Assembly: GCA_016187465.1 (NCBI GenBank)
Contig: JACPJQ010000003.1
Span: forward strand, 344,139-408,138
Length of the DNA: 64,000 bases
Source: Candidatus Woesearchaeota archaeon
Lineage (GTDB): Archaea > Nanobdellota > Nanobdellia > Woesearchaeales > GW2011-AR4
Direction: 5' to 3'
Shown here: piece by piece, positions 9,127 through 56,256 of the stretch
How positions within the stretch are numbered: the stretch's first letter is position 1
Layout of the letters: each line of letters opens with the position of its first letter
Notes under the pieces: model-generated
Database searches by the model: none
Seen by the model: only the letters and a program-made list of their open reading frames with translations
Told to the model about the DNA's origin: nothing
Program-made: the position numbers and the translations under genes

Positions 9127-10365
9127 ATGGCAAAGCCCACAATTTCATTATGCACGATAACAAAGAATGAAAAAAGGAATTTACGCAGTTGCCTGGGTTC
9201 GGTTAAAGATATTGTAGATGAAATGGTAGTAGTAGATACGGGAAGCACGGACAAGACAAAAGATATAGCCAAGAAATTCAATGCGGAGGTATTTGATTTT
9301 AAATGGATTGATGACTTCAGCGCTGCCAGAAACGAAAGCATAAAACACGCTACAAAAGACTGGGTACTCGTGCTTGACGCTGATGAAATGTTGGATGAGG
9401 AAGGCGTAAAGGCAATAAAACACCTTGTCGAGGATAAAGAAACAGATGCATTCCTTTTTCTCCAAAAGAATTACACAAACAGCACCTCAATTGCAGGCTT
9501 TGTCAATGAAGAGCATAAAAAGGACGGCAAAGTATATGCCGGCTGGTACGGCTCTCTTATCGTAAGGCTTTTCAGGAATAAAAAAGGATACGAGTTTGAG
9601 GGTGTAGTGCATGAACTAGTTGAGCCGTCAATAGAAAGCAAGGGGGGGAAGATTTCAACAGCAAATGTTGTTGTGCACAACTACGGCAATGCGGACACGG
9701 ATATCGTAAAGAAAAAAAGACAGTATTATTTAGAGCTTTGCAAGAAGAAAGCAAGCCAGAACCAAACTGATTCCTCTTATTACGAACTTGGAGTTTTATA
9801 TAAAGAAAATGATGATATCGAGGATGCAGTAAAATCCCTTAAAAAAGCAATCGAGTTAAATCCAAAGCATAATATGGCTTGGTACGAGCTGGGAGTTTTA
9901 TGCGAGCAAAAAAAGGAGTATGACGAGGCTGTAAAGAATTATACTGAATCATTAAGGCTCAAGGAAAGCAGTGAAGCTTTTCAAAACCTTGGGGTTTGCT
10001 ATCTTAAAAAGGGAATGCTCAAAGAATCTTATAGAAACCTTGTGAAGGCAATGCTGCTGAACCCGAATAAATATACTACTTATAATAATCTTGGAGCTGT
10101 GCTTGAAAAAGCCGGGAAGTATGATACTGCTGTCCAAATGCTGGAAATCGGCATTAAGTTAAATCCAAAGAATGTGATTGGATTCTACAACCTCGGCATC
10201 GCTCTTGACAAGAAAGGTGAATTTGGGAAAGCGCTTCAGGCTTATGAAAAAGCTGTTGAGTTGGGGCACAGCAAAAGCGAAGATATAAAGAAGAGAATTA
10301 AGCAGATTAAAACAATAATCATAAATATGCCTAATTATAAGTACGGGTTTAAGGTTGGTGGTTAA
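9127..10365 (+). CDS. Glycosyltransferase family 2 fused to TPR repeats
   Basis: 412 residues. The GT2 domain (1-210) has ISLCTITKNEKRNLRSCLGSV, VVVDTGSTDKT and VLVLDADEML (the DxD motif), followed by AGWYGSLIVRLFRN and FEGVVHELVE, as in SunS-like GT2 enzymes. From about residue 215 at least five tetratricopeptide repeats follow (SYYELGVLYKENDD, AWYELGVLCEQKKEYDEAVKNY, AFQNLGVCYLKKG, YNNLGAVLEKAGKYD, FYNLGIALDKKGEF), a protein-docking module. It likely glycosylates a protein; the adjacent S-layer gene is a candidate target. TATA ATTTAAATAC about 30 bases upstream implies leaderless mRNA. It overlaps the convergent beta-lactamase-like gene by 4 bases. Confidence 0.85.
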   Translation: MAKPTISLCTITKNEKRNLRSCLGSVKDIVDEMVVVDTGSTDKTKDIAKKFNAEVFDFKWIDDFSAARNESIKHATKDWVLVLDADEMLDEEGVKAIKHLVEDKETDAFLFLQKNYTNSTSIAGFVNEEHKKDGKVYAGWYGSLIVRLFRNKKGYEFEGVVHELVEPSIESKGGKISTANVVVHNYGNADTDIVKKKRQYYLELCKKKASQNQTDSSYYELGVLYKENDDIEDAVKSLKKAIELNPKHNMAWYELGVLCEQKKEYDEAVKNYTESLRLKESSEAFQNLGVCYLKKGMLKESYRNLVKAMLLNPNKYTTYNNLGAVLEKAGKYDTAVQMLEIGIKLNPKNVIGFYNLGIALDKKGEFGKALQAYEKAVELGHSKSEDIKKRIKQIKTIIINMPNYKYGFKVGG

Positions 10366-11414
10366 GGAAGATTGTATCTTAGTTTCATATACCCATGTGC
10401 AAGAACAGATAATTCACGAATTACATCGGCACGACTTCTTGCCCATTTATGGTACGCTTCTTCTCCGTTCACTCTGTTCTTTTTTTCTATTATTGCAATT
10501 AGGCTGTAAGGGTATATATTATCATCCTTATCCCTAGCTTCAACTATGCTTATGTCACCACACACTCTGGCAGTTGTTCCGGTCTTGTTATATAAAATAG
10601 TTTTTTTAGGCTTACCAAGTATACGGGATAAAACCCGATTCCATCGTGCTTCAGACATTAACTCTTTTAATTTGTCAGAGTGAGGTAGGTGGTTGTGCCA
10701 AAGAGCATCAAGAAACCCTTGATAATCGTTTACAGAAGATAGATTACTATAATAGGACTCCCCTTCAGAAACCGTTAATCCTTGTTCCTTTGCACTCTCT
10801 TTTTCTTTAGGGGTCAGTGGGATATAATCGATGATGCTGGCTTGTTTTAATGTATCCTTGTAGTTATTTAGCAATATCGACTGAATTGCCTCCGGACCTT
10901 TAATTCCGTCTACCTCAACCTTGTCCATAATAAAGTTAGTTGAGACATTGTCGCTCTCTTGCAGCATCTTTCTTAAATGTCCCATGATAAAAGGGTCTAT
11001 ATTTTTTTCTTGCGCAACTGTATGGAGATAAGCCAATGCTACATAAGGCTTTATCATACTGGCTGCCTGCATTTGAGCATCAGTGTATAATGAAACCAAT
11101 CTTTCGTTTGCTTTGAAGTCATAAACTAAAAATCCCACATTTTCGTCGTAAGCAATTTTTCCGCTTTTCTTTAGATCTGCAACATGCCTCACAATTTTTT
11201 CTTCTAGAGTATCTCCTGAAACATTTGGTGCTCTGATATATGCAACTTTATTTTTAAGATTTTGGTATTTTACATTTTCAGCTTTAGTTTTAGATGAAGA
11301 TTGCTCAATGCGGGCACTAGGTTTAGAATATTGCTCATGGGCATAAGCCGGATAGTTCCATAGTAAGGTACTTGCTAACAGCCCTCCTGATAATTGCCGT
11401 CTAGTTAAAGCCAT
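10362..11414 (-). CDS. Exported class A beta-lactamase-fold serine hydrolase
   Basis: 350-residue protein with the three active-site elements of class A beta-lactamases/D,D-peptidases: SMIKPYVAL (SxxK), ESDNVSTNF (SDN) and YNKTGTTARV (KTG). The N-terminus MALTRRQLSGGLLASTLL...AYA has twin arginines followed by a hydrophobic stretch and AxA site, a Tat-like signal. Members are common in bacteria; archaea have no murein, so the substrate is unclear. It faces a lytic transglycosylase across a 104-base divergent promoter region. The minus-strand TATA GATTTATAAAC lies about 25 bases before the ATG. Bacterial origin by transfer is likely. Confidence 0.82.
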   Translation of the reverse strand: MALTRRQLSGGLLASTLLWNYPAYAHEQYSKPSARIEQSSSKTKAENVKYQNLKNKVAYIRAPNVSGDTLEEKIVRHVADLKKSGKIAYDENVGFLVYDFKANERLVSLYTDAQMQAASMIKPYVALAYLHTVAQEKNIDPFIMGHLRKMLQESDNVSTNFIMDKVEVDGIKGPEAIQSILLNNYKDTLKQASIIDYIPLTPKEKESAKEQGLTVSEGESYYSNLSSVNDYQGFLDALWHNHLPHSDKLKELMSEARWNRVLSRILGKPKKTILYNKTGTTARVCGDISIVEARDKDDNIYPYSLIAIIEKKNRVNGEEAYHKWARSRADVIRELSVLAHGYMKLRYNLP

Positions 11415-11518
11415 ATCCTGCTGGTTTGGGAAGCAGTTTATAAATCTTTTTATTGTTACTACTTTTAAAGAACAACAATAGAAAGATTTAAATACAATTA
11501 ATTGGTACCCTACACTTT

Positions 11519-12427
11519 ATGAGTTCAATTGATGAGATTGTGGGTTCAAATAACTTAGCACAAGCCAAAATATCCAGAAGGGATTTTCTTAATTCTCTGT
11601 GGCAGTTAGGCGGAGCTATATTGCTTACCGTCAATCTTCCTTCTGAAGCCTACGCACAAAGAAGACGAAAAAGATTTCAGGAGCCCCAGCATAAACACAT
11701 TGACTACTCAAAGGTTCCTGTTCCAAATGTTGGCTACAAAGAGCTAGTAAAAGAGCCAAAACTTTCAGGTATTAGCTTACATGATAGAGATACTGATGTA
11801 GGCAAAATTCAAAGAGTTATGAGGTGGAGTAACCTAACAGCAACTGTAGAGAGCAGATATGGAATACCCAAAAATTATCTTCTAGGAATGATCGGCATTG
11901 AGTCATACGGAGATCCTACGCTGCCAAATCTGCTTGGCGATGGTGGAGCAGGTTTAAGTCATATGCAACCTTTATTAGCTTCAAAATATGGGTTGCAGTT
12001 AATTACTGACTCTAGAAGATTAAGGGATTTTGAACAGGGAAGAAAACTTAAGCAAGCTATAAACGAAGTTCATGGCGACTTAAAAGAATTAATCAACTAT
12101 GATGATAGGTTTCACCCAATTAAAAATGTGGATGCTGCTGCAAGGATGTTGTGTGATCTTTATCAAAAAACACATTCTTGGGACTCTGCTCTCGAAAGAT
12201 ATGCTGGAAGACGAAATTATGATTCTAGGGTTAGGCATCTAGCTGAGGCAATTTCAAGCGGTAGAGTTATGAGGATAGTAAGATTTAATTTTAATAACAG
12301 TAATATAAATGCCAAAGCATATAGCAAAAGTATTGATTTTGACGGGTATGTAAAGTTGTTCCACAATTTAAACAGAAACTATGGACTTGATGAATACAAA
12401 AAGTTAAAGAGGCATCCTGTAAGATAA
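11519..12427 (+). CDS. Tat-exported lytic transglycosylase (SLT domain)
   Basis: 302 residues. The N-terminus contains KISRRDFLNSLWQLGGAILL...AYAQ, a textbook Tat signal (SRRDFL). An SLT/goose-lysozyme-type domain spans about residues 100-230: YGIPKNYLLGMIGIESYGDPTLP carries the catalytic Glu (IES), and GGAGLSHMQPLLASKYG is the GLxQ-like second motif. RYAGRRNYDSRVRHLAEA completes the fold. Such enzymes cleave bacterial peptidoglycan glycan strands. Paired divergently with the beta-lactamase-fold gene, it suggests action on a bacterial neighbour or prey wall, or an unrecognised wall polymer. TATA GATTTAAATAC lies at 11484-11494. Confidence 0.82.
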   Translation: MSSIDEIVGSNNLAQAKISRRDFLNSLWQLGGAILLTVNLPSEAYAQRRRKRFQEPQHKHIDYSKVPVPNVGYKELVKEPKLSGISLHDRDTDVGKIQRVMRWSNLTATVESRYGIPKNYLLGMIGIESYGDPTLPNLLGDGGAGLSHMQPLLASKYGLQLITDSRRLRDFEQGRKLKQAINEVHGDLKELINYDDRFHPIKNVDAAARMLCDLYQKTHSWDSALERYAGRRNYDSRVRHLAEAISSGRVMRIVRFNFNNSNINAKAYSKSIDFDGYVKLFHNLNRNYGLDEYKKLKRHPVR

Positions 12428-12521: not shown

Positions 12522-13373
12522 TCACCCTTCCAGTATCTTATAAAAGGTGTCAAATATCGGCGTATCGGTAATTGCAAGGTCGTAGTCGATATTCAGCCTG
12601 TTGCACACTTCCTCTATCTTGGCGCAGTGGCTGTCAAGCTGCTGCTGGTATTCCATCCTCATTCTCGGGCTTATGAACGTTCTTACCATTCCCTTTGTCT
12701 CGCTGTCTATAAGCTTCATGTCGCCTTCCATTTTGAGTTCTTTTTCGACCCTGTCAAGCACCTGGATTATTTTTATGTGATGGTCCCCTAACATATAGAA
12801 TGCCTCCCTTATTTCATCTATATTAACCAGGAAGTCCGATACCAGCACAAGCATGGACTTGCTTCCGATCACCTTCTTGTACTGCCTTACTGTATCCAGA
12901 ATTTTTGAGTTGCCTTTCGGCTTTATTGAATTAAGATGCTGCACCATTGCCGCAAGGTGGCTCATTCCCCTTCTGGGCTGGAAGATCTCAAGAGAATCAG
13001 CAAATGTGGAAAACTGGAATTTTTCATTATCTCTCATGGCAAGGTATGCAAACCCCACTCCGATCATTGAAGCATAATCAAACTTGCTCAGAGGCTTGCC
13101 AAAGCCCATTGATGCGCTGCCGTCTATTATTATATGGACTGTAAGGTTCCTTTCCTCCTCATGAACTTTGATGTATAAATTGTCTGTCCTTGCATAAACT
13201 CTCCAGTCTATAAGCCTTATATCGTCTCCCGGCGCGTATATCCTGTAGTCCTTGAAAGTCATGCCCTGCCCGCCTGCAACCGACTTCCTCGGCCCCGTTA
13301 AATTGGAAGTTACTCTTTTCTTTACCACAAGGTTAAACCTTGACAACTGGTCGAGGAATGAAGTGTCTATCAT
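12522..13373 (-). CDS. DUF58 domain protein (MoxR-associated)
   Basis: 283 residues. It has the DUF58 signature YAPGDDIRLIDWRVYARTDNLYIK followed by a von Willebrand A-like fold with HIIIDGSASMGFG (MIDAS DxSxS) and LVLVSDFL. DUF58 proteins act with MoxR AAA+ ATPases in assembling or activating secreted or membrane complexes. It is the last gene of the minus-strand MoxR/Bat-type operon, 210 bases after the MoxR gene. The intervening sequence holds two hairpins that could moderate read-through. Confidence 0.88.
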   Translation of the reverse strand: MIDTSFLDQLSRFNLVVKKRVTSNLTGPRKSVAGGQGMTFKDYRIYAPGDDIRLIDWRVYARTDNLYIKVHEEERNLTVHIIIDGSASMGFGKPLSKFDYASMIGVGFAYLAMRDNEKFQFSTFADSLEIFQPRRGMSHLAAMVQHLNSIKPKGNSKILDTVRQYKKVIGSKSMLVLVSDFLVNIDEIREAFYMLGDHHIKIIQVLDRVEKELKMEGDMKLIDSETKGMVRTFISPRMRMEYQQQLDSHCAKIEEVCNRLNIDYDLAITDTPIFDTFYKILEG

Positions 13374-13498
13374 TTTATTTGGTTATTCTAATGTAATCTT
13401 TAAATTTTTTAAATCCGTCTTCGACATATCTTGTGCTCGGCTTTCGCTCTTTTTACATTGCGCTCAAGCCTCCCTGTTTATTCATTGAATTTATCCGA

Positions 13499-13556
13499 GG
13501 CGAAATTCAATGGCAGAAGAATTTCGCCGAGTCAAGATTTTGTCGCCAAAGGCGAC
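13499..13556. repeat. Two hairpins between moxR and DUF58 genes
   Basis: A perfect 10-bp inverted repeat GGCGAAATTC (13499-13508) / GAATTTCGCC (13519-13528) is followed by GTCGCC-AAA-GGCGAC (13542-13556). GC-rich stems stand out against the AT-rich background. They lie in the only long gap of the operon and could stabilise or process the moxR transcript, or be remnants of an intergenic repeat. Confidence 0.6.
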
Positions 13557-13583
13557 GGATTAAATTATTTTAATTCAATCAGA

Positions 13584-14519
13584 CTACTTTATTTTGTCCA
13601 AAATCTGCTTTATCGCATCGTCCTTGGACATTCCTTTTCTCTCTGCCTCGAAATTCAGGATTATCCTGTGCCTCAAAATTGGGTAGGCGAGTATGTTTAA
13701 GTCGTCATTGCTCACATGGTTCCTGCCTTGTATCAAGGCCCTTGCTTTCGACGCCAGAATCAGCCCGATGGAAGCCCTTGGCGATGCGCCGTATTGTATA
13801 ACCTCCTTGTTCTGCCTTGTTGCTAAAATGATTTTTACCGCCCTCTGCTTGATGTCGTTTGCAATCGGCACCTGCCTCACAAGCCCCTGCAGAGTAAGGA
13901 GGTGGTTTTTATTCAGCATGACTTTCAATTTCGTGTCTTTTGACTCAGCCGCAAACCTGTCAACAATCTGGAGCTCCTGATCGTAGCTTGGGTAATTCAC
14001 GCTTATCTTAAGCAGGAACCTGTCAGCCTGGGCTTCTGGAAGAGGGTACGTCCCTTCTTGCTCAATGGGGTTCATCGTTGCGAGCACAAAAAAAGGCAGA
14101 TCAAGCTTGAATGTGTTTGTGCCCACTGTAACCTGCTTTTCCTGCATTGCCTCCAATAAAGCAGATTGTGTCTTTGGAGTGGCCCTGTTGATTTCGTCTG
14201 CAAGCACGACATTTGCAAAAATAGGGCCGGGCTGGAACTTGAACTGGCGCTTTCCGGAAGATTCCTCTATGATGTAAGTGCCTGTGATGTCCGACGGCAT
14301 TAAGTCAGGGGTGTTCTGTATCCTGCTGAACTTCAAATCCATAAGCTGCGCAAGTGTCCTTACCGTGAGAGTCTTTGCCAATCCAGGATAGCCCTCAAGC
14401 AATGCGTTGCCGTCGCACAAAATCGCCACCAGAATCTGCTCGATAATGCTTTCCTGCCCTACGATAACCTTGCCCATCTCCTTCTGAAGCTCGTCGAAAA
14501 TCTGCTTGTAATTTTTCAT
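13584..14519 (-). CDS. MoxR-family AAA+ ATPase
   Basis: 311 residues with Walker [15 protein letters not shown], Walker [25 protein letters not shown], sensor 1 [25 protein letters not shown] and the AAA lid with [16 protein letters not shown]. MoxR ATPases are chaperone-like motors paired with DUF58/vWA proteins. The ribosome-binding GAGGTGA overlaps the stop codon of the upstream HepT gene, and the two genes are 7 bases apart. The ATPase is therefore translationally close to the inserted toxin-antitoxin module. Confidence 0.93.
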
Positions 14520-14526
14520 TTAAAGT

Positions 14527-14895
14527 TCACCTCAAAGATTTTTTGTTAATTTTTTTAGATAACGTTTTAAGAATTATTTTAATTTTTTTCTTTAAGTCTG
14601 GTAAGTCGTTACTAACAACACCCCAAGTTATATTCAGGTCGACGCCAAAATATCCATGGATAAGTTTATCTCTCATTCTTGCAATTTCATTCCACGGCAC
14701 ATTAGTATGTTTTTCTTTAAAGTTTGCAGATAGATTCTTAGTTGCTTCACCAATTATTTCTAACCTTCTTATAACTGCATCTTGTGTCTTAACCGATTTG
14801 ATAAATTCCACTTTAGAAATGCCTTTTGTGAATTTTTCTATTTTGTCTATACTTTCAAGAATATGTTTAAGGAAGATATTATCGTCTTTTTTCAT
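14527..14895 (-). CDS. hepT: HepT-like HEPN toxin (DUF86)
   Basis: 122-residue HEPN-fold protein of the HepT/DUF86 family. The RNase motif Rx4-6H is present as RDKLIHGYFGVD, preceded by RRLEIIGEATKNLS, a stretch typical of HepT. HepT toxins cleave RNA and are silenced by MntA through AMPylation of the conserved tyrosine in the RxxxxHxY motif, which is present here. The start overlaps the antitoxin stop (ATGA). The pair lies inside the MoxR/Bat operon. Confidence 0.88.
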   Translation of the reverse strand: MKKDDNIFLKHILESIDKIEKFTKGISKVEFIKSVKTQDAVIRRLEIIGEATKNLSANFKEKHTNVPWNEIARMRDKLIHGYFGVDLNITWGVVSNDLPDLKKKIKIILKTLSKKINKKSLR

Positions 14896-15194
14896 AAAAT
14901 TTTAACCTCTTCATCTAAAATTCTTTTTTTTAATAATGGGTGTATCGAGTCATAAGTTAAAATATCCACTTTTCTCTTTAATTTTTTTTCCAGTTCAATT
15001 TCTAAACCTGCAAGGTCGAGAAGACTCTTTGTTCCTCTAAACTTTATTAAAATATCAACATCACTATTTCTTTTGGCTTCCCCCCTCACAAAAGACCCAA
15101 ATAATCCAGCTTTTATTACATCATTCCTCCTCAGCGATGGAACAATTTGCCTTTGGAGCTTCTGTAGTTGAGCTTTGGCTCGTTTATTATTCAT
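14892..15194 (-). CDS. mntA: MntA-like nucleotidyltransferase antitoxin
   Basis: 100-residue minimal nucleotidyltransferase with the GSFVRGEAKRNSDVDILI motif (GSxxxG...DxD), the signature of the MNT antitoxin partner of HepT. The C-terminal ELEKKLKRKVDILTYDSIHPLLKKRILDE is standard for the family. It overlaps HepT by 4 bases. A minus-strand TATA (AAAAATATAAATC, around 15219-15231) about 30 bases upstream gives the module its own leaderless promoter within the larger operon. Confidence 0.9.
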   Translation of the reverse strand: MNNKRAKAQLQKLQRQIVPSLRRNDVIKAGLFGSFVRGEAKRNSDVDILIKFRGTKSLLDLAGLEIELEKKLKRKVDILTYDSIHPLLKKRILDEEVKIL

Positions 15195-15304
15195 TTTAGT
15201 TTATTTCGAATATTTTTTGAATGATTTATATTTTTTAGTATACTCTTCTAATCTTAATTAACTGATGTCTCTACATTAAATTTTCAATTATTACATTTAT
15301 TTTT

Positions 15305-15700
15305 TTAATCTTTATTTGTTCCATTTGAATCGCTTTTGAATCCTCCATAAGGTGCGTACTTATCTATTGCCGATTTTATTCCGTCAACTTGTTTCGGATT
15401 TCTCCAATCTGAATCTTGGGCTCTTCTTAATAAGTCGCTTAGGAAACTTTCGTCTTCGGGCTTGAGATGGTAATTTTTTTTATGCGCAAATTCAACTGGG
15501 TTTTGTTTCATTGCCTTACAGCATTCTAATAATTTATTTTTTGCATTATCAATTGTAGTAGCGTAAGTTTTGCCTTCCACGAAGTTGTCATTGATAGTTT
15601 CTCCACTATGCTGCATTTGTGCATGTGCATTTCTAGCAATAGTTACCTCTCCCATAAGATAATGCCTCACCGCTCCTAATAAAGATTTGTCTATTGTCAT
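15305..15700 (-). CDS. Hypothetical protein
   Basis: 131 residues, not recognised. Predicted mainly helical and soluble, with a conserved-looking N-terminus (VRHYLMGEVTIARNAHAQMQHSG) and a hydrophilic Lys/Asp-rich end. There is no signal peptide or membrane segment. It lies between the membrane genes of the Bat-type operon and the MntA/HepT module, with gaps of 76 and 110 bases. That makes it part of the insertion that splits MoxR from the von Willebrand genes rather than a core component. Real-gene status rests on length and an intact frame only. Confidence 0.55.
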   Translation of the reverse strand: MTIDKSLLGAVRHYLMGEVTIARNAHAQMQHSGETINDNFVEGKTYATTIDNAKNKLLECCKAMKQNPVEFAHKKNYHLKPEDESFLSDLLRRAQDSDWRNPKQVDGIKSAIDKYAPYGGFKSDSNGTNKD

Positions 15701-15776
15701 TTTTTTCTAAATATCATTTGTTTATTTTTGTATTTATTGATTACAATGTGATATCGATTCGTTATTTAATATAAGA

Positions 15777-16550
15777 TTACCCTTCCGCCAATTTCTTGAA
15801 ATAATTTCTCACCAGTTCCTGCTGCTCCTGCGGAATGTTTTCCTCAAAAGCCGCTGTTTCCCTGACAGTCAGGTCTTTGGGAAAGACGCTCTCGAATTTT
15901 TGCTGCTCAGCCTCTCCTTCTTCCCTGACATTAACCTTGAAGTCAACGGGCTTTATCCTGATGTTGAGCTCCTTGTCGCCGAGCTTTGCGACGTCCTTGT
16001 TGCCGAAAATGTCGTCGCTTGTGTTCAGTTTTACTGCCACAAAATTTCCGACTCCCTTGGGCCCTTCGAATATGTCCGGAACTTTCTGCTTTGCAAACTC
16101 CACAATTTTCAAGTTTAAAGTTGTTGCGAATATTATCATAAATGAGAGCAGCATGACTGCAAATATCTTATAGGACAATGTCCTTGGGTTTATAAACATT
16201 GACAAGCCGACATTCTTCATTTCCGTTGTGACTTCGTATTCAAGCTCTTCCACAATAGGGCTTTCCATGCCGACATTGTCAGCCGCCGTCCTGAGTTTCT
16301 CCCTTAGAGGAGCGTATTTGCTTTCTACCATAAGGGGCTTTGATGACCTAAATCCCATGTAAGAATAGAATCCCAGGTAAACAAATGCAGGTATCAGCGC
16401 AAACAGCGGATTGGAATCAAAGATTGACAATATCAAATAGAATGCCAAGAATACAAGAGTTGTGTTTACTATGTTCTCAAATAATGTCAGCTGTGTCAAA
16501 GTCCTGTTGATTTCCCTGACAACATTTGAAAATTGTTTCATTTTTAGCAA
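15777..16550 (-). CDS. Membrane protein of the MoxR/Bat-type operon
   Basis: 257 residues. Two hydrophobic segments near residues 28-70 (FENIVNTTLVFLAFYLILSI, LFALIPAFVYLGFYSYM) and a third at about 128-148 (IFAVMLLSFMIIFATTLNL) precede a roughly 110-residue soluble tail rich in charged residues. It was not recognised by family. The frame overlaps the preceding coiled-coil gene by 7 bases, so the two are co-translated. The true start may be the internal Met at 16541. It probably anchors the vWA/MoxR complex in the membrane, which is inferred only from position. Confidence 0.7.
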   Translation of the reverse strand: MLKMKQFSNVVREINRTLTQLTLFENIVNTTLVFLAFYLILSIFDSNPLFALIPAFVYLGFYSYMGFRSSKPLMVESKYAPLREKLRTAADNVGMESPIVEELEYEVTTEMKNVGLSMFINPRTLSYKIFAVMLLSFMIIFATTLNLKIVEFAKQKVPDIFEGPKGVGNFVAVKLNTSDDIFGNKDVAKLGDKELNIRIKPVDFKVNVREEGEAEQQKFESVFPKDLTVRETAAFEENIPQEQQELVRNYFKKLAEG

Positions 16551-17065
16551 GTTTCTGACTGTCCACTAGTTGAGTGCAGGCACGCTATTCTCTTCTCCAA
16601 ATCGTCAATCTTATCATCTAATCTCTTTACATCTGACTTAAGATTTAAAACCTGCTGATTTAAGTCCTGTGCAAGTTGGATTTGCGCAGCCAATTGGCTT
16701 TGGGTTTCTGTTAATTTTGCTGCAGTGCTGGCCAAGTTTGATTTTGTGCTTGCCAGTTCGTCCTGGAGTTTTTTCTTGTCGGTTTCAAGCTGCTCTTTTT
16801 CAGACCTTACATCAGTGAATTTTTTGCTTATGTCTGCCTCTTTCTGCTTGTTCAGCTGAAGCTGCACGCTGGTTTCATTAAGCTGGCCTCGCTTTGACTC
16901 CAGCTCTTTGCTTATGGATTCAAGCTCCTTGAGTTTTGTCTCGTAGCTTTTTGACACGTTCTTGAAAGTGGTTTGGTAATAGACTGTAAAGCCGCTGAAC
17001 ATCAGCAATGCCGCCACTATCAAAATCAGCAATCCGATATTGACGTCTCTTTTCATAACTGCCAT
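16544..17065 (-). CDS. Single-pass membrane coiled-coil protein
   Basis: 173 residues: one N-terminal transmembrane helix (GLLILIVAALLMFSGFTVYY) followed by about 120 residues of heptad-rich coiled coil (KLKELESISKELESKRGQ...LKSDVKRLDDKIDDLEKRI) and a short tail with two Cys. Topology suggests a rod projecting outside the membrane. It sits one base after the 820-aa vWA gene and overlaps the next membrane gene, so it is a likely structural part of the same envelope complex. No specific family is recognised. Confidence 0.72.
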   Translation of the reverse strand: MAVMKRDVNIGLLILIVAALLMFSGFTVYYQTTFKNVSKSYETKLKELESISKELESKRGQLNETSVQLQLNKQKEADISKKFTDVRSEKEQLETDKKKLQDELASTKSNLASTAAKLTETQSQLAAQIQLAQDLNQQVLNLKSDVKRLDDKIDDLEKRIACLHSTSGQSETC

Positions 17066-17066
17066 T

Positions 17067-19529
17067 TTATTTCTGAAGGTTTTCCCTGTACCTTCTTATG
17101 CCTATCTCTGCCAAAAACAACATCAAAGCGGTAATGGCGAAAGGCCACCTGTAATCTGTGCTTTCAATTTTTATTCTTTTCGATTTGGCCTTGACAAATT
17201 CTATGATTCCCTTTATATCAGACGGCTCAAAAATCTTTCCACCTGTCTTGTCCACCAAAGTGGTGAATTCATTGTTAACGCCGAGGTTTGCGTACTCGTC
17301 ATTGTAATTTACGGCAAATGTTGCTCCTAAAATCTCTTTATAGCCGGTGTCTTTTGGAGTGTAAACTGATGAATATAAGTTTGTGTCTATTTTGGCAAAT
17401 GACTGCCCTGCTGCCTGAGGCATATCCTTTGACACTACATTAACGCTTGTGGATTTGCCTAACACAGCGTCTCTTATTGTGACATCATATGCCTGCTTCC
17501 TTCCCAAATCTCCTATCACCCAGTTTATGCTTTTCGTAATTAATTTTGAATTCTGCTTGTTAAGCAAATCTCCAGCCCACTTCAGGCCGTCATCAGTTGT
17601 AAGGCTGACAACCCTGCCAAGCCCAAAGCGCCATACAACAAGCACAGGAATATTTTTATGTGTAGTGACAAGCATCCTTGCTGCAGGCTTCGGAACGCCA
17701 TAGTTGTAGCCCGAGATAGTTGCATGCAGGTCATCCAGTCCAAGCGTTATGAAATGAGTTGTGTCAATTGGCACAAGCGTGTTGTAGAACTCCTCGCCTT
17801 TTGTTTCATCCTGCTCGCCGAACTGCACTTTCAGCTTATTGGACACATCAGCTTTGTAATAAACACCGCTGCCCAGTGCGGCCATATTTGCCAAGAAAAG
17901 GTTGTTGTCTGTTGCCATGCTGTCAGTTTCAGTGCCGACTCCAACAACAAATACCTTTGCGCCAAGCGTATTGATGCGCCTGACAGACTCAAGAGTGTCC
18001 TCCCTCAGTTTTTGGTATGTTGTTTTGCCGTCGCTGATGAAAATGATGTTTTTGCTCCCTCCAACTTTGCTGAGCATCTGGAATCCGCCCTGAATGCCGA
18101 CATCAAAGCATGACTGCCCGTCAAATTTTAATCGCGAGATTTTTTCTTTCAGCTCTTTTTTTATTTCCTTCAGTGTCCTTATTTCCGATATTACAAATGC
18201 CTGGCATGGGCTGTAGCCAAAAGCGACTGCGCCTACATTATTTTTCTCGCTCAGGCTGTCAACAACGCTTAATGCCAATGCCTTCTCTACTGCAATATAG
18301 TCTTCAGTGCCCTGGGAGATATCAATTACAATGACGATATTTATGTCGCTTTTGTTCTGCTCTTCTCCGGCCCCTATCTTAACCGGAAGCAGGGTCTCAA
18401 GAAGGGTGCCTTTGTAGCCTCCCCTGTCGAAAGAGCTCTCCCCGCCGACAAATACCAGCCCGTTTCCGTCGGAAACATAGTCGCTTAGCTGGTTTACAGA
18501 AGATGTTAATTTTGAAGCCGGCATATCATCAATTATAACCGCCATGTAACCCGATAAATCAGATGGGACGTTGTTGTTCACATCAAGGGCATAAATTTTG
18601 TTCAGCTCCTGCGCCAAAGGAGAATTTTTTTGAGTGGCGTAGAGGACTTTCGGCCTGGGGACTATCTTTACACTCTTATAGAAAACATTGTTATTCTGGA
18701 AGTAGTCATCATTTCCGACGCCAAGGAGCTTGGCTGTAAGCTTGTGGTACTCGCCTTCCGGAAATTTTTTTGAGAAAGTGAATGTTTTTGATGAGCTGCC
18801 TTCCTCCTCCAGTACCAGGTTAGTGTCATCGTATGTGACTTGCAGCGTGTAAGGTATGCTGCCCCCAACCACAGAAACCCTCACAACAAAATCGCCTTCA
18901 GTGTCCTTGATAAGTTCCGGCGGACCGTCGATTGTGACTCCAACGTCGTTCTTTACATGCCCCATCTTAAGCGTGCTTACGGATGAGTTTATATTGGATG
19001 CGAAAAGCATTATGTCGCCAAGCAGCTTGCCATCATTGTTTACTCCATCAGTTATCACCATAACATTGTCGTCTCCCTCAATGTTGTTTAGTATGCCGTT
19101 GCCGATGGCTGATTGCTCTCCGCTGGCAATTGTTCTCAGTTCAACAGGTATTGCGCCTTCCAGCTTTTTGTAAAGTTCATACGCGATATTCGGGCTATAC
19201 AGCGCCATTGAGCTTGAATTGTCGGCAAGTATTTTAAGATGGGGGTTGCCCGGCACTGTTTTGCTTTCCAGCATGAAAGGCGATGCAATTGCAGCCATCA
19301 AAAAAACCACGGCAATGCTTCTCAAAAGTAAGACGATTCTTCTGTCTGTTTTTTTTGATTTAAGGTAAGCCTCAAGCTCGAACCTGTTGTTGAACTTCAC
19401 AAATGTTTTTCTGGTAAACCAGAAGAGAAGCAGAAGAACCGGAATGATAGCTATGATAACGTAAGAGTATTTTACGCAATACTTTGACATGCAGTAAATT
19501 TTTGAGTAATCCGGGATTATGAATGCCAT
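17067..19529 (-). CDS. Membrane protein with two von Willebrand A domains (Bat-like)
   Basis: 820 residues. N-terminal membrane helices (YSYVIIAIIPVLLLLFWF, LRSIAVVFLMAAIASPFML) precede a degenerate vWA domain with MIDAS-like LADNSSSMALYS and VMVITDGVNNDG. A CARDB-like beta domain is followed by a GATase1-like segment (YMAVIIDDMPASKL, NGLVFVGGESSFDRGGY). A second vWA starts at IVIVIDISQGTEDYIAVEKALALS and includes NIIFISDGKTT. A final transmembrane helix is near 800. Architecture matches the large membrane vWA proteins of MoxR operons; the ligand is unknown. Confidence 0.82.
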   Translation of the reverse strand: MAFIIPDYSKIYCMSKYCVKYSYVIIAIIPVLLLLFWFTRKTFVKFNNRFELEAYLKSKKTDRRIVLLLRSIAVVFLMAAIASPFMLESKTVPGNPHLKILADNSSSMALYSPNIAYELYKKLEGAIPVELRTIASGEQSAIGNGILNNIEGDDNVMVITDGVNNDGKLLGDIMLFASNINSSVSTLKMGHVKNDVGVTIDGPPELIKDTEGDFVVRVSVVGGSIPYTLQVTYDDTNLVLEEEGSSSKTFTFSKKFPEGEYHKLTAKLLGVGNDDYFQNNNVFYKSVKIVPRPKVLYATQKNSPLAQELNKIYALDVNNNVPSDLSGYMAVIIDDMPASKLTSSVNQLSDYVSDGNGLVFVGGESSFDRGGYKGTLLETLLPVKIGAGEEQNKSDINIVIVIDISQGTEDYIAVEKALALSVVDSLSEKNNVGAVAFGYSPCQAFVISEIRTLKEIKKELKEKISRLKFDGQSCFDVGIQGGFQMLSKVGGSKNIIFISDGKTTYQKLREDTLESVRRINTLGAKVFVVGVGTETDSMATDNNLFLANMAALGSGVYYKADVSNKLKVQFGEQDETKGEEFYNTLVPIDTTHFITLGLDDLHATISGYNYGVPKPAARMLVTTHKNIPVLVVWRFGLGRVVSLTTDDGLKWAGDLLNKQNSKLITKSINWVIGDLGRKQAYDVTIRDAVLGKSTSVNVVSKDMPQAAGQSFAKIDTNLYSSVYTPKDTGYKEILGATFAVNYNDEYANLGVNNEFTTLVDKTGGKIFEPSDIKGIIEFVKAKSKRIKIESTDYRWPFAITALMLFLAEIGIRRYRENLQK

Positions 19530-19607
19530 TTTATTATTTTGATTTTTTAATGCTGTTTTATTGGTTTTACCTGAAGTTTATTTAATGTGTTTTTATTGTT
19601 CATTGCC

Positions 19608-21470
19608 TCATATGTCGCCCCTCCTCTTTATGTAAAAAAACTCTGCCAGCATGAATAAAAACACAAACAAAAGAATTGTCAGCTCCAGATTGAAATCATG
19701 CTCTTTGCTTTCCCTGCTAAGCAGCTTCTCGCGTTCCTTCTGGCTTTCGACCTTTGACGGCAAGCTTATATCTGATTCTTTTTCATCAAGGAGGTTTACT
19801 GCATATTTCTTATTGTCGTATTCATAAATTCCAGCTTCGTCCATCAAAAGCTTTGAGGTAGTCAAGCTTGAAGAGGGGGTTTTGACCTTCTGCTCCCCGA
19901 TGGTTGCAATCTTTCCTGTCTTGTAGTTGAAATCCTTTATGTCCTCTGTGCCTATCATGAAGTTTATCAGGGAATTCCAAAAGATGGGATAAGAAGGCAG
20001 CGTCTTAAAGTCGCTCGTTTCATCCAAAATTCCGTAATAAACATTCTTGCCTTTTTTTCTCTCCCCATAGACTATAAGCGGAGTTTTGTCATCTGCAGAA
20101 GCGAATATTATAGAGCCTTTTTTTGCCTCGGCGCCGAAATAAGACGATGCTGTTGTAAAGCATTTCTCATTCTCAAATTGCTTTGTTATCTGGTTTATTG
20201 TTTCTATGCACGCCTTAGTAGGCCTGTTAATTTTATTTTTTAATTCAACTATTGGGAGATCGCCCATATTCAGCTCATTTAAGTCTCCTTGTGCAGCTAT
20301 TACAAGATTGCCGCCGTCATTCACGTAATCTTCAATATCCTCAAATGTTCCAGGCACAAGCTCGCTCTTTTTGATGTTGTACAGGATTATTATGTCCTGC
20401 TTGTATGGGTCTATCTTCTCTTTCTTTGTGTTTATGGTAAGCACGGGGGGATTTACAACGCTCAGCTCCACGTCCTTGGCCGCCCCAAGCGCGAGCTCAA
20501 GGTTGCTTGATTTGACATTTGTCACAAGCAACACCGAATTCATTATCTTGGGAGGGGTTGCGACGTAAGCTATATCATCGACACTTAAGTCGTCTTTTGG
20601 CTCAAGCTCCACTCTTGAGATCCCTGCAGGAGTGTCAAAAATAAAGTTCTCGACTGACTTTGGGGCTATGGTGACTTTTGCATCTGTGATTGTTTTTTCG
20701 TCCTTGACAATTTTTATTGTTCTCTGCACGGCCTCATTATTGAAATTTTTCACGTAAATTTTTGTATTGTACTTTGTTGCCTCGAGCTTTATGATGCCGA
20801 CATTTTTTGCATCGTTTGAAACATCAACAAAATCTATCAGCTTGTCCTCCGAAGACAGTGCAGTCCTAACAACTTCTATGTCGGGCCCTTCTGTGGAAAG
20901 AAAATCGCTGAAGACAACAATCCTTCCAGGTTTATCACCCAGAAGGTCTTTTGCAAGAAGCAAAGCGTCTCCCAAGTTTGTGGTTGTCGCCCTTGGCTTT
21001 ATTTTTGAAATCACATCGAGTGCTAGCTGGTCATTCTCGTTCTCAAGCACAATCAAGGGGATGTTCTCAGCCATTATTATGCTGTTCCTTCCGCTTACAA
21101 CCTTTTTTGCCTGTCCTAACGCAGCATCGAACCTCGAAACACCCTTTTCTTTTGCCTGCATGGACGCGCTCACATCCAAGATAACGACAGTGTTTTCAAG
21201 CGTCACATCATATTTTAATTTTACAAATGGTGCTGCTGCCACAACAGCCAATCCCAAAATGGAAAGCAGCTGGAGCAGAAAAAGCAGGTTTGTCATGAGC
21301 TTCTGCAAAAAAGAGTACTGCTTGGATCTCTTCTTGTCCTGCATTATAAACATCAAAGATGGAATTACTTTATCTTGGGGCTTTGGCCTCCTCATATAAA
21401 GAACAATAAATGCGATTACTGCTATCAGCGCCCACAATCCGAAAGGCCTTTGAAAAGGTAAGCTCACCAT
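19608..21470 (-). CDS. BatA-like membrane protein with von Willebrand A domain
   Basis: 620 residues. The first 65 residues form the BatA N-terminal membrane module (LPFQRPFGLWALIAVIAFIVLYMRRPKP...LIFIMQDKK-type). A second helix FLLQLLSILGLAVVAAAPF follows, and then a vWA domain with a full MIDAS motif VVILDVSASMQ and GRIVVFSDFLS. Beta-sandwich and GATase-like segments (DIIILYNIKKSELV, GNLVIAAQGD) and a C-terminal helix (LTILLFVFLFMLAEFFYIKR) complete it. It is the first gene of the operon, so its promoter probably drives the vWA-MoxR set. Confidence 0.84.
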   Translation of the reverse strand: MVSLPFQRPFGLWALIAVIAFIVLYMRRPKPQDKVIPSLMFIMQDKKRSKQYSFLQKLMTNLLFLLQLLSILGLAVVAAAPFVKLKYDVTLENTVVILDVSASMQAKEKGVSRFDAALGQAKKVVSGRNSIIMAENIPLIVLENENDQLALDVISKIKPRATTTNLGDALLLAKDLLGDKPGRIVVFSDFLSTEGPDIEVVRTALSSEDKLIDFVDVSNDAKNVGIIKLEATKYNTKIYVKNFNNEAVQRTIKIVKDEKTITDAKVTIAPKSVENFIFDTPAGISRVELEPKDDLSVDDIAYVATPPKIMNSVLLVTNVKSSNLELALGAAKDVELSVVNPPVLTINTKKEKIDPYKQDIIILYNIKKSELVPGTFEDIEDYVNDGGNLVIAAQGDLNELNMGDLPIVELKNKINRPTKACIETINQITKQFENEKCFTTASSYFGAEAKKGSIIFASADDKTPLIVYGERKKGKNVYYGILDETSDFKTLPSYPIFWNSLINFMIGTEDIKDFNYKTGKIATIGEQKVKTPSSSLTTSKLLMDEAGIYEYDNKKYAVNLLDEKESDISLPSKVESQKEREKLLSRESKEHDFNLELTILLFVFLFMLAEFFYIKRRGDI

Positions 21471-50039: not shown

Positions 50040-51317
50040 GTGGTATACAAGATACTCGATTTATTTGCAGGAGCTGGAGGATTTAGTTTGGGCTTTGAAA
50101 ATATAAGGGACAAAAAGAATGTTCCTACCTTTGAGATGTTCAAGGCAGTAGAGATAGATAAATACGCATGCGATACTTTAAGAACAAACTTTGGTTATGA
50201 TAAAGTTATAGAAGGGGACATAACAAATAAAAAAATTCATGACAGGATTATAAATGAATGTAATGGAAAAATTGATTTAATCATAGGAGGTATTCCTTGT
50301 CAATCCTTCTCTCTGATTGGAACCAGAACAGGAAAAAAGAAGAAAAATGAAGATAAACGGGATATACTATATATGGAATATTTTGAGATAGTTAAGAATT
50401 TAAAACCAAAAATAATTGTGATAGAAAATGTAAAGGGTATTCTTTCAAAAAAAGATAAACATGGTAATTTAATTTTTGAAAATATAATAAAAGATTTTGA
50501 AAGGTTAGGATACTCATTTGAAACAGAAGAAGATAAAAAGTACATGTTACTAAATGCAGCTGATTTTGGTGTTCCACAGAAAAGGGAAAGAATTTTTGTA
50601 GTTGGTTTGAGGAATGATATTTTTCCAAATATAAAAGTACCAGTTCCAAAAAAAACCCATGGAAAAAACAAAAATTTGTTTCCTTATGTTACATTACTAG
50701 ACTCGATTGGAGATTTACCAAAAGTATATCCTAAAGTAACAGGAACAGGATTAACTACCCTAATAAGAAGCAGACTAATGAAAAAAAATAGAAGGATATA
50801 CAATGGAGAGGAAGCAAAGCCCTACGATAGAACGGATTTGATAAAACATATATCCAATAATGTTATAAGAAAGAATTTTTTTCAGTTTGTCAGACCAAAT
50901 GGATGTGCATTGTACCACCATATTGCTAGAAGTCAGCAGTTATCCGATATAATGTTGTATAAAGGTATGAAACAGGGATGGACTGCAAAAGATGTTATGG
51001 AGAAAGGGGGCATGCTAAAACAATATATAAAATACGATATGGGAAGTTTTAAAGATAAATATAGAAAACAGAAATGGTTAGAACCAAGTACAACAATTTT
51101 TGCACATTTAGAGAAAGATGGAAACAGATTTATACATCCAACCCAAGCTAGAACTTTTACGCCAAGGGAAGCTGCAAGGGTACAATCATTTCCAGATGAT
51201 TTTTTATTTGAAGGTCCGTTAAGTAAAAAGTTTAAACAGATTGGCAATGCTGTCCCGCCCATTTTGGCTTTCCATACAGGATTAGTCATTAAAACCATCT
51301 TTGAGGAGACAAAATGA
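50040..51317 (+). CDS. dcm: DNA (cytosine-5)-methyltransferase
   Basis: 425 residues from GTG. Motif I DLFAGAGGFSLGF, motif IV GGIPCQSFSLIGTR with the catalytic Cys, motif VI VIENVKGI, motif VIII QKRERIFVVGL, a variable target-recognition region (about 250-350), and motif X QIGNAVPPILA. It makes 5-methylcytosine at an unknown site. The stop overlaps the NurA ATG by 4 bases. Fully intact, so host DNA is presumably modified. Confidence 0.95.
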   Translation: MVYKILDLFAGAGGFSLGFENIRDKKNVPTFEMFKAVEIDKYACDTLRTNFGYDKVIEGDITNKKIHDRIINECNGKIDLIIGGIPCQSFSLIGTRTGKKKKNEDKRDILYMEYFEIVKNLKPKIIVIENVKGILSKKDKHGNLIFENIIKDFERLGYSFETEEDKKYMLLNAADFGVPQKRERIFVVGLRNDIFPNIKVPVPKKTHGKNKNLFPYVTLLDSIGDLPKVYPKVTGTGLTTLIRSRLMKKNRRIYNGEEAKPYDRTDLIKHISNNVIRKNFFQFVRPNGCALYHHIARSQQLSDIMLYKGMKQGWTAKDVMEKGGMLKQYIKYDMGSFKDKYRKQKWLEPSTTIFAHLEKDGNRFIHPTQARTFTPREAARVQSFPDDFLFEGPLSKKFKQIGNAVPPILAFHTGLVIKTIFEETK

Positions 51318-52405
51318 GTAATACAGAAAGAACCATAACATTTAAAGACCTGTTGGAACAGAAAACTTGGACTGATTACGGGGATTTTGTAAGTGAGGCA
51401 AATGAACTGCTTTCAAAAGAAGTAGAAAACCATATTAAAGAAGAAAAAGAACTTATTCACGAGCTTAAGCAAAATCCTCTTTTTAAAAAATTGCGGATTA
51501 AGTCAGTGAATGAAAGACTTCCAGAGGCAGAAAAACTGCTTTTAGGGGGAAATGTTGTAGGGGTTGATGGCACAAGAGCAGATTATAGACTAATATCCGG
51601 TCTTAGAGCACAGATAGGGGTTGTTGCTGTAAACTATATGGGGGATAAAATAAGGAAATCTTTTTTTATTTCTGAAGCGAATCTAAAAAACAAAAGTTTG
51701 GATGTAATTGAAAGAATTTCCGGACGAGCACTTCATGATGAAACTCTCTCAGATATGGCAGTCAGAGGACTTATGTTATACAGGGAAAGAGAAGCCGGTC
51801 TTGATCCAAAATTTAATGGTAAGTATGTTATGTTCCATGGACCATTATTACCGTTTGAACTTATGTCCGGATTAGGACGATTAAGGGCATTGGATTTCAC
51901 ACTCGATATTTTAAGAAAAATAATCAGAGAAAAAAGATTTTTCTCCGTGATATCTTCTACATCATTTCAGGATTATTTAACATTTGGTAGAGCAATAGAA
52001 CCAATGCAGTATCTTACAGCACAAGAGTACACATTTGGGCACTATTTAGAGAATGAAAGTAATTTTTTAACATGGAAGGATAAATGGAGGGATGACGAAA
52101 GAAAAAAAGTTGAAGAGTTTATAAGAGACTATGCTGAAAAAATATATATTGGCGTTATAAGAATAGGAGACAGACCTTATGTATTCCATGCTCATGAAGA
52201 CACTTTTGATCTTGCCGCTTCAATAATTGCAAGAGATTCGCTATTCCAAAAACAAAAAGGATTCCCTTTACTTATTGATTACGCTGATGCATTATGTTCA
52301 CAATATTTTCGAGCAGGTGACTTTAGAGGAATTATGGAGTGGGAACTAGCAAAGAAAGGAGCTTATTTGGCTGAAGCTCCAGAAAGGGATTTAAGATTAA
52401 AGTAG
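51314..52405 (+). CDS. nurA: NurA-type nuclease
   Basis: 363 residues. NurA core: NVVGVDGTRADYRLISGLRAQIGVVAVNY (first metal-binding Asp in GVDG), internal helices, and the C-terminal DTFDLAASIIARDSLFQKQKGFPLLIDYADALCSQYF, which matches the NurA strand bearing the last acidic residue. NurA nucleases form rings with HerA and resect DNA. It overlaps dcm (ATGA), and HerA follows within 12 bases. It differs from housekeeping NurA by its context inside a modification cluster. Confidence 0.85.
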   Translation: MSNTERTITFKDLLEQKTWTDYGDFVSEANELLSKEVENHIKEEKELIHELKQNPLFKKLRIKSVNERLPEAEKLLLGGNVVGVDGTRADYRLISGLRAQIGVVAVNYMGDKIRKSFFISEANLKNKSLDVIERISGRALHDETLSDMAVRGLMLYREREAGLDPKFNGKYVMFHGPLLPFELMSGLGRLRALDFTLDILRKIIREKRFFSVISSTSFQDYLTFGRAIEPMQYLTAQEYTFGHYLENESNFLTWKDKWRDDERKKVEEFIRDYAEKIYIGVIRIGDRPYVFHAHEDTFDLAASIIARDSLFQKQKGFPLLIDYADALCSQYFRAGDFRGIMEWELAKKGAYLAEAPERDLRLK

Positions 52406-52417
52406 ATGGAGGTCAAA

Positions 52418-54070
52418 ATGTCAAACGAAAAAGAACCTATAGGTTTTATTAATTTTGATGGAACTACAGGTCAAAATAATGAGGTTGAAGTTAGGATACC
52501 CTACAAGAGGATCAATGATGTAAAAAGAGGACAATATGTAATTCTTGAATCTGACAGCACGAATAATGATAGGGTGTACTTGGCAAGAATTGTCAAAGGA
52601 CCTTTTTTCGAACCTGATGCTGTCGGTAAGGATTCTGCTTTTGCCAGAGCCGCTATTCTGGAAGCAGATACAGTAAAATTCAGGCCAGACTATCATGCTA
52701 TCTGCAGGGCAGAGATATTAGGAGAAATCATAGATCGGGAATCACTGATTCTTACCGGAAGTTCAAATAGACCCATACCACAAACAGCAGTTTTACCTAT
52801 GACTGGGAAAGAGATAGAAAAACTTCTTGGTCTGGACGGGGACGTTTATTTTGGAGAATTATCTGGTTATCACGAAGTCAGGGTGCATTTTAAGCAGGAA
52901 GATAAAAAAGTATTCCCAAGAAATTTAGGCATTTTTGGAACTGTTGGTTCTGGAAAAACCAACTCAAGTCAGGTTTTAATAGAAGAATTATCAAAATCCG
53001 GGTGGGCAATAGTGGTTTTGGATGTGGAAGGGGAATATGTACTGATGGACCAACCATCAAAGGAAGCAGAAACTAAAAAGTTTATTAAAAAACTTATGGA
53101 ACGTTTTGGAATAAGCCCGGAAGGGTTAAAGAATGGCCTAAATATTTATCATCCCATTGGTTTTGAGTGTGCAAGACCGGAAAAATCGAAAGAATTCGGA
53201 ATAAGATTTGATAATGTAGAACATCATATTCTTGGAGAGATACTTGATCTTAATCCGGCTCAGATGGATAGGTTTATGGAAGCATATTACGAACTTGAAA
53301 GTGAGTATGAAACAAAATCCGAATCAAAAAAGAAAGCAAGACTTACAATGATTGAGGCAGTTGCCGATGATACCGAAGAAGAAGCAATCACGGGAAAAAC
53401 TCTGAAAGAATTTATTGAAAAGGTAAAACAAAAGATGAAAGATGGAAAATCTATAGGAGATAAGTCATCTTACGCTGTCGTATTAAGAAAATTAAATAAA
53501 TTAAAGAGGTCGGGGGTATTTGATACTCAAAATCACTTGGGTGATTACTCTGAACTTCTAAAGGTTGGAAATGTCAGTATATTTGATCTCAGCAACTCAC
53601 AAAATCTCTATGTGAATAATATAGTTATTAGTACGTTGCTCAATAAATTGTTTGCACTTAAAGTCAGGGATAAAGATAATAGACTGCCTCCCCTTATGAT
53701 TGTTATAGAAGAAGCCCATAGTTTTATCAGTAGAGATAGGGCTGGTAGCATGGAGGAAACATTAGACATTCTAAGGGATATTAGCCGCAGAGGAAGAAAA
53801 AGATGGTTAAGTCTGTGCTTTATCAGCCAACAGCCTTCACATCTCCCTCCTGAGATTTATGAACTCTGTAATACAAAGATTGTTCATCAAATAACCGGTG
53901 GAAAGAACTTAGATTCAATTAAAGGTTCTGCAGGAGGAGTAAATCCGGCTTTATGGGATGAAATACCAATTATGGGACAGGGAAGGTGCCTTATTATTTC
54001 ACCACAATTCAGGCATGCTATTTTAGCTGATGTAAGACCATGTTCAAGCAGGAGGGGGATGACAGAGTGA
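52418..54070 (+). CDS. herA: HerA-family DNA translocase/helicase
   Basis: 550 residues from ATG 52418, chosen because GGAGGT lies five bases before it (the track starts at 52406). An N-terminal HAS-like barrel (INFDGTTGQNNEVEVRIPYKRINDVKRGQYVILE) is followed by Walker A GTVGSGKTNSSQ, GWAIVVLDVEGEYVLMD, Walker B PLMIVIEEAHSFI, and arginine-finger region RDISRRGRKRWLSLCFISQQPSHLPPEIYELCNTKIVHQITGG. A hexameric ATPase that would feed DNA to NurA. Stop overlaps the next gene. Confidence 0.93.
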   Translation: MSNEKEPIGFINFDGTTGQNNEVEVRIPYKRINDVKRGQYVILESDSTNNDRVYLARIVKGPFFEPDAVGKDSAFARAAILEADTVKFRPDYHAICRAEILGEIIDRESLILTGSSNRPIPQTAVLPMTGKEIEKLLGLDGDVYFGELSGYHEVRVHFKQEDKKVFPRNLGIFGTVGSGKTNSSQVLIEELSKSGWAIVVLDVEGEYVLMDQPSKEAETKKFIKKLMERFGISPEGLKNGLNIYHPIGFECARPEKSKEFGIRFDNVEHHILGEILDLNPAQMDRFMEAYYELESEYETKSESKKKARLTMIEAVADDTEEEAITGKTLKEFIEKVKQKMKDGKSIGDKSSYAVVLRKLNKLKRSGVFDTQNHLGDYSELLKVGNVSIFDLSNSQNLYVNNIVISTLLNKLFALKVRDKDNRLPPLMIVIEEAHSFISRDRAGSMEETLDILRDISRRGRKRWLSLCFISQQPSHLPPEIYELCNTKIVHQITGGKNLDSIKGSAGGVNPALWDEIPIMGQGRCLIISPQFRHAILADVRPCSSRRGMTE

Positions 54071-56244: not shown

Positions 56245-56256
56245 AGGGGGTTTAAG

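Follow-up and report, generated by a model that had tools for sequence, protein, structure and literature searches.

What would an archaeon, in which we know of no use for murein, do with two adjacent genes for enzymes of peptidoglycan-cutting families? This question is raised by a 64,000-nucleotide stretch (here called the window) from a Candidatus Woesearchaeota genome, in which a serine hydrolase gene and a lytic transglycosylase gene diverge from a common promoter region. A preliminary description of the window, made from its letters alone, had called the products twin-arginine-exported enzymes of the class A beta-lactamase and SLT (soluble lytic transglycosylase) types, and its placement of the two open reading frames (ORFs) and the gap between them proved exact:

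10362..11414, minus strand: class A beta-lactamase-fold serine hydrolase, PBP-A-like, 350 amino acids (PF13354, AlphaFold core, Foldseek)
11519..12427, plus strand: SLT/GH23 lytic transglycosylase, 302 amino acids (PF01464 above the curated cut-off; weak goose-type lysozyme profile match)
11415..11518, no strand: divergent promoter region of 104 bp between the two ORFs

We think it probable, on balance, that the two proteins form a two-enzyme kit that is exported to cut bacterial murein. The SLT protein would cleave the glycan strands between N-acetylmuramic acid (MurNAc) and N-acetylglucosamine (GlcNAc), and the hydrolase, working like PBP-A by way of an acyl-Ser119 intermediate, would attack stem-peptide bonds of the D-Ala-D-Ala type without destroying antibiotics, so that the secreted activities would complement each other. 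Because this archaeon carries a gene for an S-layer protein and has no use for murein that we know of, the murein attacked would be that of bacteria living as its neighbours, prey or hosts, which the enzymes may reach by Sec or by an unrecognised route.

The assignment of the hydrolase rests on family, fold and catalytic residues. In Pfam the protein matched Beta-lactamase2 (PF13354; E 9.2e-15) with 55 bits, the cut-off being 22. The core of its AlphaFold model had a predicted local distance difference test score (pLDDT) of about 96, and Foldseek returned LRA-5 (the best fold match) and PBP-A among the best matches of this model, along with true class A beta-lactamases. A profile built from the window protein and its bacterial homologues (38 rows, one row listed twice) had LRA-5 (E 5.7e-10) and PBP-A (E 8.4e-10) as its top matches, with the TEM and SHV enzymes next. 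The three motifs of class A beta-lactamases are all present, and the position of the class A general base was located by profile alignment with PBP-A and by column composition:

11049..11060, minus strand: SxxK motif, Ser119-Met-Ile-Lys122; Ser119 and Lys122 invariant in 38/38 rows
10947..10955, minus strand: SDN motif, Ser154-Asp-Asn156; Ser154 and Asn156 invariant in 38/38 rows
10578..10586, minus strand: KTG motif, Lys277-Thr-Gly279; invariant in 38/38 rows
10818..10823, minus strand: Ile198-Pro199 in place of class A Glu166-Pro167, with no general-base Glu

The fold and motifs thus stood up, but a beta-lactamase function did not: Ile198, which with Pro199 lies opposite Leu-Pro of PBP-A, occupies the omega-loop position of Glu166, and the NCBIfam class A model, whose cut-off is 200 bits, scored the protein at 17.4. 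Since the defining Glu166 was looked for and is replaced, we did not class the hydrolase as a beta-lactamase. Its class A fold without Glu166 is that of the PBP-A type, and because the nearest solved relatives, PBP-A and LRA-5, also lack this residue, we regard a peptidoglycan DD-peptidase of the PBP-A type as more likely than a beta-lactamase. With isoleucine at this position, a positive nitrocefin turnover would not be expected, and PBP-A-like DD-peptidase action would.

PBP-A of Thermosynechococcus elongatus (PDB 2j7v, 2j8y; PMC11189452) likewise combines the class A fold and the SxxK, SxN and KTG motifs with the lack of the omega-loop glutamate on which class A beta-lactamases rely for catalysis. 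It is, however, only about 17% identical to the window protein by structural alignment, and is a cyanobacterial DD-peptidase that presumably acts on the wall of its own cell, with neither an archaeal context nor an SLT partner. LRA-5 (PDB 8eo5; PMC12777564) also has the class A fold without Glu166, with Val at 166 (PDB 8eo7; PMC12777564), but it is a metagenomic soil protein discussed as a beta-lactamase precursor.

For the second enzyme, the SLT domain named in the preliminary description was borne out by a Pfam match to PF01464 of 29.1 bits against a cut-off of 21.3 (E 7.7e-7). A profile built from three members of the SLT family also matched goose-type lysozymes weakly. Glu128-Ser129 is followed by the Gly145-Gln150 motif, as in SLT/GH23 proteins, and both are kept in archaeal relatives:

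11900..11902, plus strand: predicted catalytic Glu128 (IES), kept in the archaeal SLT alignment
11951..11968, plus strand: GLSHMQ, a motif of the SLT G-x-x-x-[MF]-Q type, conserved in that form

That lytic transglycosylases occur in Woesearchaeota and Pacearchaeota, and may serve to attack bacteria, has already been published (PMC8204110, PMC9723730, PMC10936187). The murein-like lytic transglycosylases of these groups (PMC8204110, PMC9723730) share with the window protein the SLT/GH23 domain and a proposed attack on bacterial walls, but they are large, up to 3,000 amino acids, whereas the window protein has 302, carries a twin-arginine leader and is paired with a DD-peptidase-like protein. 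Killing of bacteria by archaeal peptidoglycan hydrolases has been shown, and Nanoarchaeota are prominent among the groups that encode homologues (PMC12352652). The passages of that paper on which we draw describe secreted wall hydrolases, as proposed here, but the enzymes secreted with Tat (twin-arginine translocation) signals are those of Halogranum salarium, and those passages describe no beta-lactamase-fold partner. In the open-access literature we found no report for these archaea of a beta-lactamase-fold DD-peptidase-like partner, of SLT fusions or of Tat leaders in Tat-less genomes, and these three features appear to be new.

A wall-targeting role, which had been proposed from the window alone, was strengthened by the relatives: the recurrent linkage and fusion of the hydrolase with peptidoglycan hydrolases make a wall-cutting role likely. 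One genome (G104) encodes a twin-arginine leader, Beta-lactamase2 (E 3.6e-22) and SLT (E 3.3e-19) in a single 516-amino-acid ORF, and another (G131) has in one protein such a leader, a degenerate Beta-lactamase2 remnant without SxxK, and SLT. Because the fused SLT domain of G104 can hardly be aligned with that of the window, independent origins of the pairing are probable. Elsewhere, the hydrolase gene lies 5 bp from the gene of an M23 peptidase that has a Tat-type leader (G150), and in G047 three LysM domains and an M15 peptidase domain are combined in a protein encoded two genes upstream of the hydrolase. In three class-level relatives, whose hydrolases lack the SxxK pattern by pattern search, the next gene abuts or overlaps the hydrolase gene and has a weak Cell Wall Hydrolase match, below the cut-off. 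Two immediate wall-hydrolase neighbours in ten loci would arise by chance with a probability of about 1e-3, a figure that depends on an assumed frequency of three wall hydrolases per 1,300 genes. A local model search found no SLT partner near the bacterial homologues of the hydrolase. In G100 (L265:6567-9241) the hydrolase gene is followed by an overlapping gene with no family match and a KRRTFL...C leader, possibly a further partner.

We then considered how the two proteins might leave the cell. Both leaders have a twin arginine (RR), as the preliminary description had it, and in both a short stretch of weak hydrophobicity and an A-x-A end are present as well; the hydrolase leader reads MALTRRQLSGGLLAS...AYA followed by HEQ, and the SLT leader ...KISRRDFLNSLWQLGGAILLTVNLPSEAYA followed by QRR. 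SRRDFL and TRRQL agree with the Tat consensus:

11397..11402, minus strand: Arg5-Arg6 of the hydrolase leader (TRRQL), invariant in 7 archaeal homologues
11576..11581, plus strand: Arg20-Arg21 of the SLT leader (SRRDFL)

RR is invariant across these seven archaeal hydrolases even though the others share only 25-43% identity with the window protein, so that chance alone does not account for the motif. The median h-region hydrophobicity of 23 archaeal RR leaders, a list partly picked by eye, was 1.65, close to the 1.50 of Tat references (p 0.44) and far below the 2.79 found for leaders of Sec type in the same genomes (p 2e-8), a set chosen with a lower bound on hydrophobicity. In the stretches that were sampled from TatC-less genomes, matches to the strict consensus [STDN]-pair-x-F-[LIVM] ahead of a hydrophobic segment had RR as the pair 6 times and KK once, and without the two gene families studied here RR accounted for 4 of 5 cases (p 5e-4). 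A general enrichment of RR before hydrophobic segments was rejected (7/49 across all doublets, p 0.22); the strict consensus alone stands out.

Tat-type leaders were also seen on other proteins. On the same contig as the window (C3), they are found on two proteins that matched no family above the cut-off: one on the plus strand at C3:135876-137015 (L133:15876-17015) with the lipoprotein-like leader ITRRGFLSAIGGG..DAC (TRRGFL), and one on the minus strand at C3:263339-264202 (L140:3339-4202) with LSRRDFLKYGVELGGG (SRRDFLK). Homologues of the latter (L259, L260 and L261) keep RR directly before a membrane segment and after an apparent helix-turn-helix domain, so that RR looks to persist there in the context of an uncleaved anchor. 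A further full Tat-type RR leader is encoded in the 99%-complete G009. The TatC-less G044 (a single contig, 100% complete) encodes a protein with the leader MNRRNFLTTAGGAGLAALVSSC (C1:238754-239854, within L197), and the TatC-less G022, of the same family, a trypsin-like protease with a DRRHFLALAG leader (L262:1-862).

Such leaders had led to the expectation of a matching Tat machinery, but none was found. We detected neither TatC (PF00902, TIGR01912 and a DPANN-specific model) nor TatA (PF02416) in the window genome; PF00902 gave no hit over the cut-off in any of the 20 same-genus genomes, this one included; and the carriers of RR hydrolases that we tested had no TatC (TIGR01912 and a model built from three TatC sequences of the phylum) and no TatA. 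By the same searches adjacent TatC and TatA were found in G025, G031 and G052, and TatC matches in three relatives reached E 1e-37 to 1e-57. An unfiltered hmmsearch of the sampled stretches returned only noise while positive controls were detected, and we rejected a hidden TatC on the grounds that all three TatC models stayed at noise. Had all fourteen carriers considered possessed tatC, the chance of overlooking it in each of them by incompleteness alone would be about 6e-16, assuming independence. An avoidance of TatC by hydrolase carriers was rejected: none of 21 had it over the cut-off, but it occurs in only 13 of the 371 genomes sampled from the phylum, so that this shows no more than rarity.

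The leaders are therefore Tat-like in every tested respect, with the S/T-R-R-x-F-L motif, low hydrophobicity and A-x-A ends of Tat substrates, and the window genome differs from Tat-using systems in that no Tat machine was found. Handling of Tat-type leaders by Sec, the cheaper explanation, is the most likely means of export, and a new or unrecognised translocase is less likely. It is conceivable, though doubtful, that Tat-less DPANN archaea export RR proteins through an unrecognisable translocase or an adapted, RR-reading Sec, with the leader under selection. In TatC-carrying relatives, a radical-SAM-like gene whose product bears a Tat leader lies adjacent to tatC or within a few kb of it (L008; G117:C8:321687-325745); in G117 this leader was the sole strict Tat-type leader seen in 326 kb, as if there were one Tat substrate.

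Several observations weigh against a two-enzyme murein-cutting kit. The exact hydrolase/SLT pair was seen in the window genome alone, where the common promoter region is its only link, and in four genomes of the same genus (G002, G016, G008 and G013) the hydrolase stands beside the same DUF58 gene with the SLT gene absent there. The SxN serine is lost in the hydrolases of two same-genus relatives, so not all copies need be active; a single-sequence structure model of the SLT protein was unusable (pLDDT 34); and the window genome offers no Tat genes to support export of the pair.

The alternatives fare less well. That the hydrolase is a true class A beta-lactamase protecting the archaeon or its partners from beta-lactams, with the SLT gene an unrelated neighbour, would suit the fold and the SxxK, SDN and KTG motifs, but we consider it very unlikely given the replacement of Glu166 by Ile and the low NCBIfam score, the absence of the beta-lactam target from archaea, and the repeated fusion or linkage of relatives with wall hydrolases. 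The enzymes might instead remodel the envelope of their own cell or a non-canonical glycopeptide wall, a reading favoured by the S-layer gene and glycosyltransferase-type genes within 10 kb of the pair. Both families are, however, patchy (21/371 sampled genomes of the phylum carry the hydrolase and 21/371 the SLT protein), unlike a housekeeping envelope function, and no such polymer is known from these archaea; we hold self-remodelling to be quite unlikely.

The genes might also be largely inert bacterial acquisitions, with leaders that are relics of Tat-using donors. The hydrolase family is indeed mainly bacterial (Verrucomicrobia, Desulfobulbaceae, Chromatiaceae and others), with RR leaders on homologues from Chromatiaceae, Syntrophobacteraceae and Eisenbacteria and none on most other bacterial homologues, and no Tat was found in the recipient genomes. 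A phylogeny supported the mostly bacterial nature of the family but allowed no donor to be assigned, archaeal and bacterial rows being interspersed on long branches. G016, G008, G013 and the fused protein of G104 form one clade (support 100/99), and the window protein and that of G002 another (99/92). Since the latter two share a locus and both have RR at 43% identity, the leader has outlived a long divergence, and RR leaders occur on proteins without a family match as well. The catalytic residues are intact and archaeal promoter elements are in place:

11437..11450, minus strand: BRE/TATA-like element (BRE, B recognition element) of the hydrolase gene, AAAAGATTTATAAA, TATA at -30
11481..11494, plus strand: BRE/TATA-like element of the SLT gene, GAAAGATTTAAATA, TATA at -32

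Because each gene has its own TATA box 30-32 bp from its ATG, a spacing found in many other window genes, the sequence suggests near-leaderless archaeal transcripts. Inert relics are thus an unlikely explanation. A viral or plasmid origin was rejected: a pattern scan found no viral-contig relative of either family, neither family was found in plasmids, and the SLT family was not found in phages. Contamination by a bacterial contig, for which nothing speaks beyond the bacterial families of the two enzymes, is extremely improbable. The genome comprises 1.62 Mb in 8 contigs (93.4% complete), and the window is the end of contig C3, where genes for TFIIB, SRP54 and an archaeal S-layer protein (S_layer_C) support the archaeal origin assumed from the outset. 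For the hydrolase gene, contamination is refuted by synteny within the genus, in which the DUF58 gene is a conserved neighbour: the four same-genus genomes have the hydrolase beside the same DUF58 and/or TPR-glycosyltransferase genes, the latter wherever the locus reaches far enough.

Elsewhere in the window, a MoxR-type cluster adjoins the pair (12522-21470), with genes for DUF58, a MoxR-type ATPase and two VWA/BatA-type proteins. A single run at 50040-59517 encodes a C-5 cytosine DNA methylase, a HerA/DUF87 ATPase, a protein with two GHKL-type ATPase domains and a large AAA protein, and looks like a possible defence island.

Archaeal wall-attacking enzymes have been shown to kill bacteria only recently, and for most Woesearchaeota no host is known. 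A glycan-cutting and a peptide-cutting enzyme that are linked or fused constitute stronger evidence for a murein target than a lone transglycosylase does, and the occurrence of Tat-type leaders without Tat genes poses a testable question of protein export in a large group of archaea.

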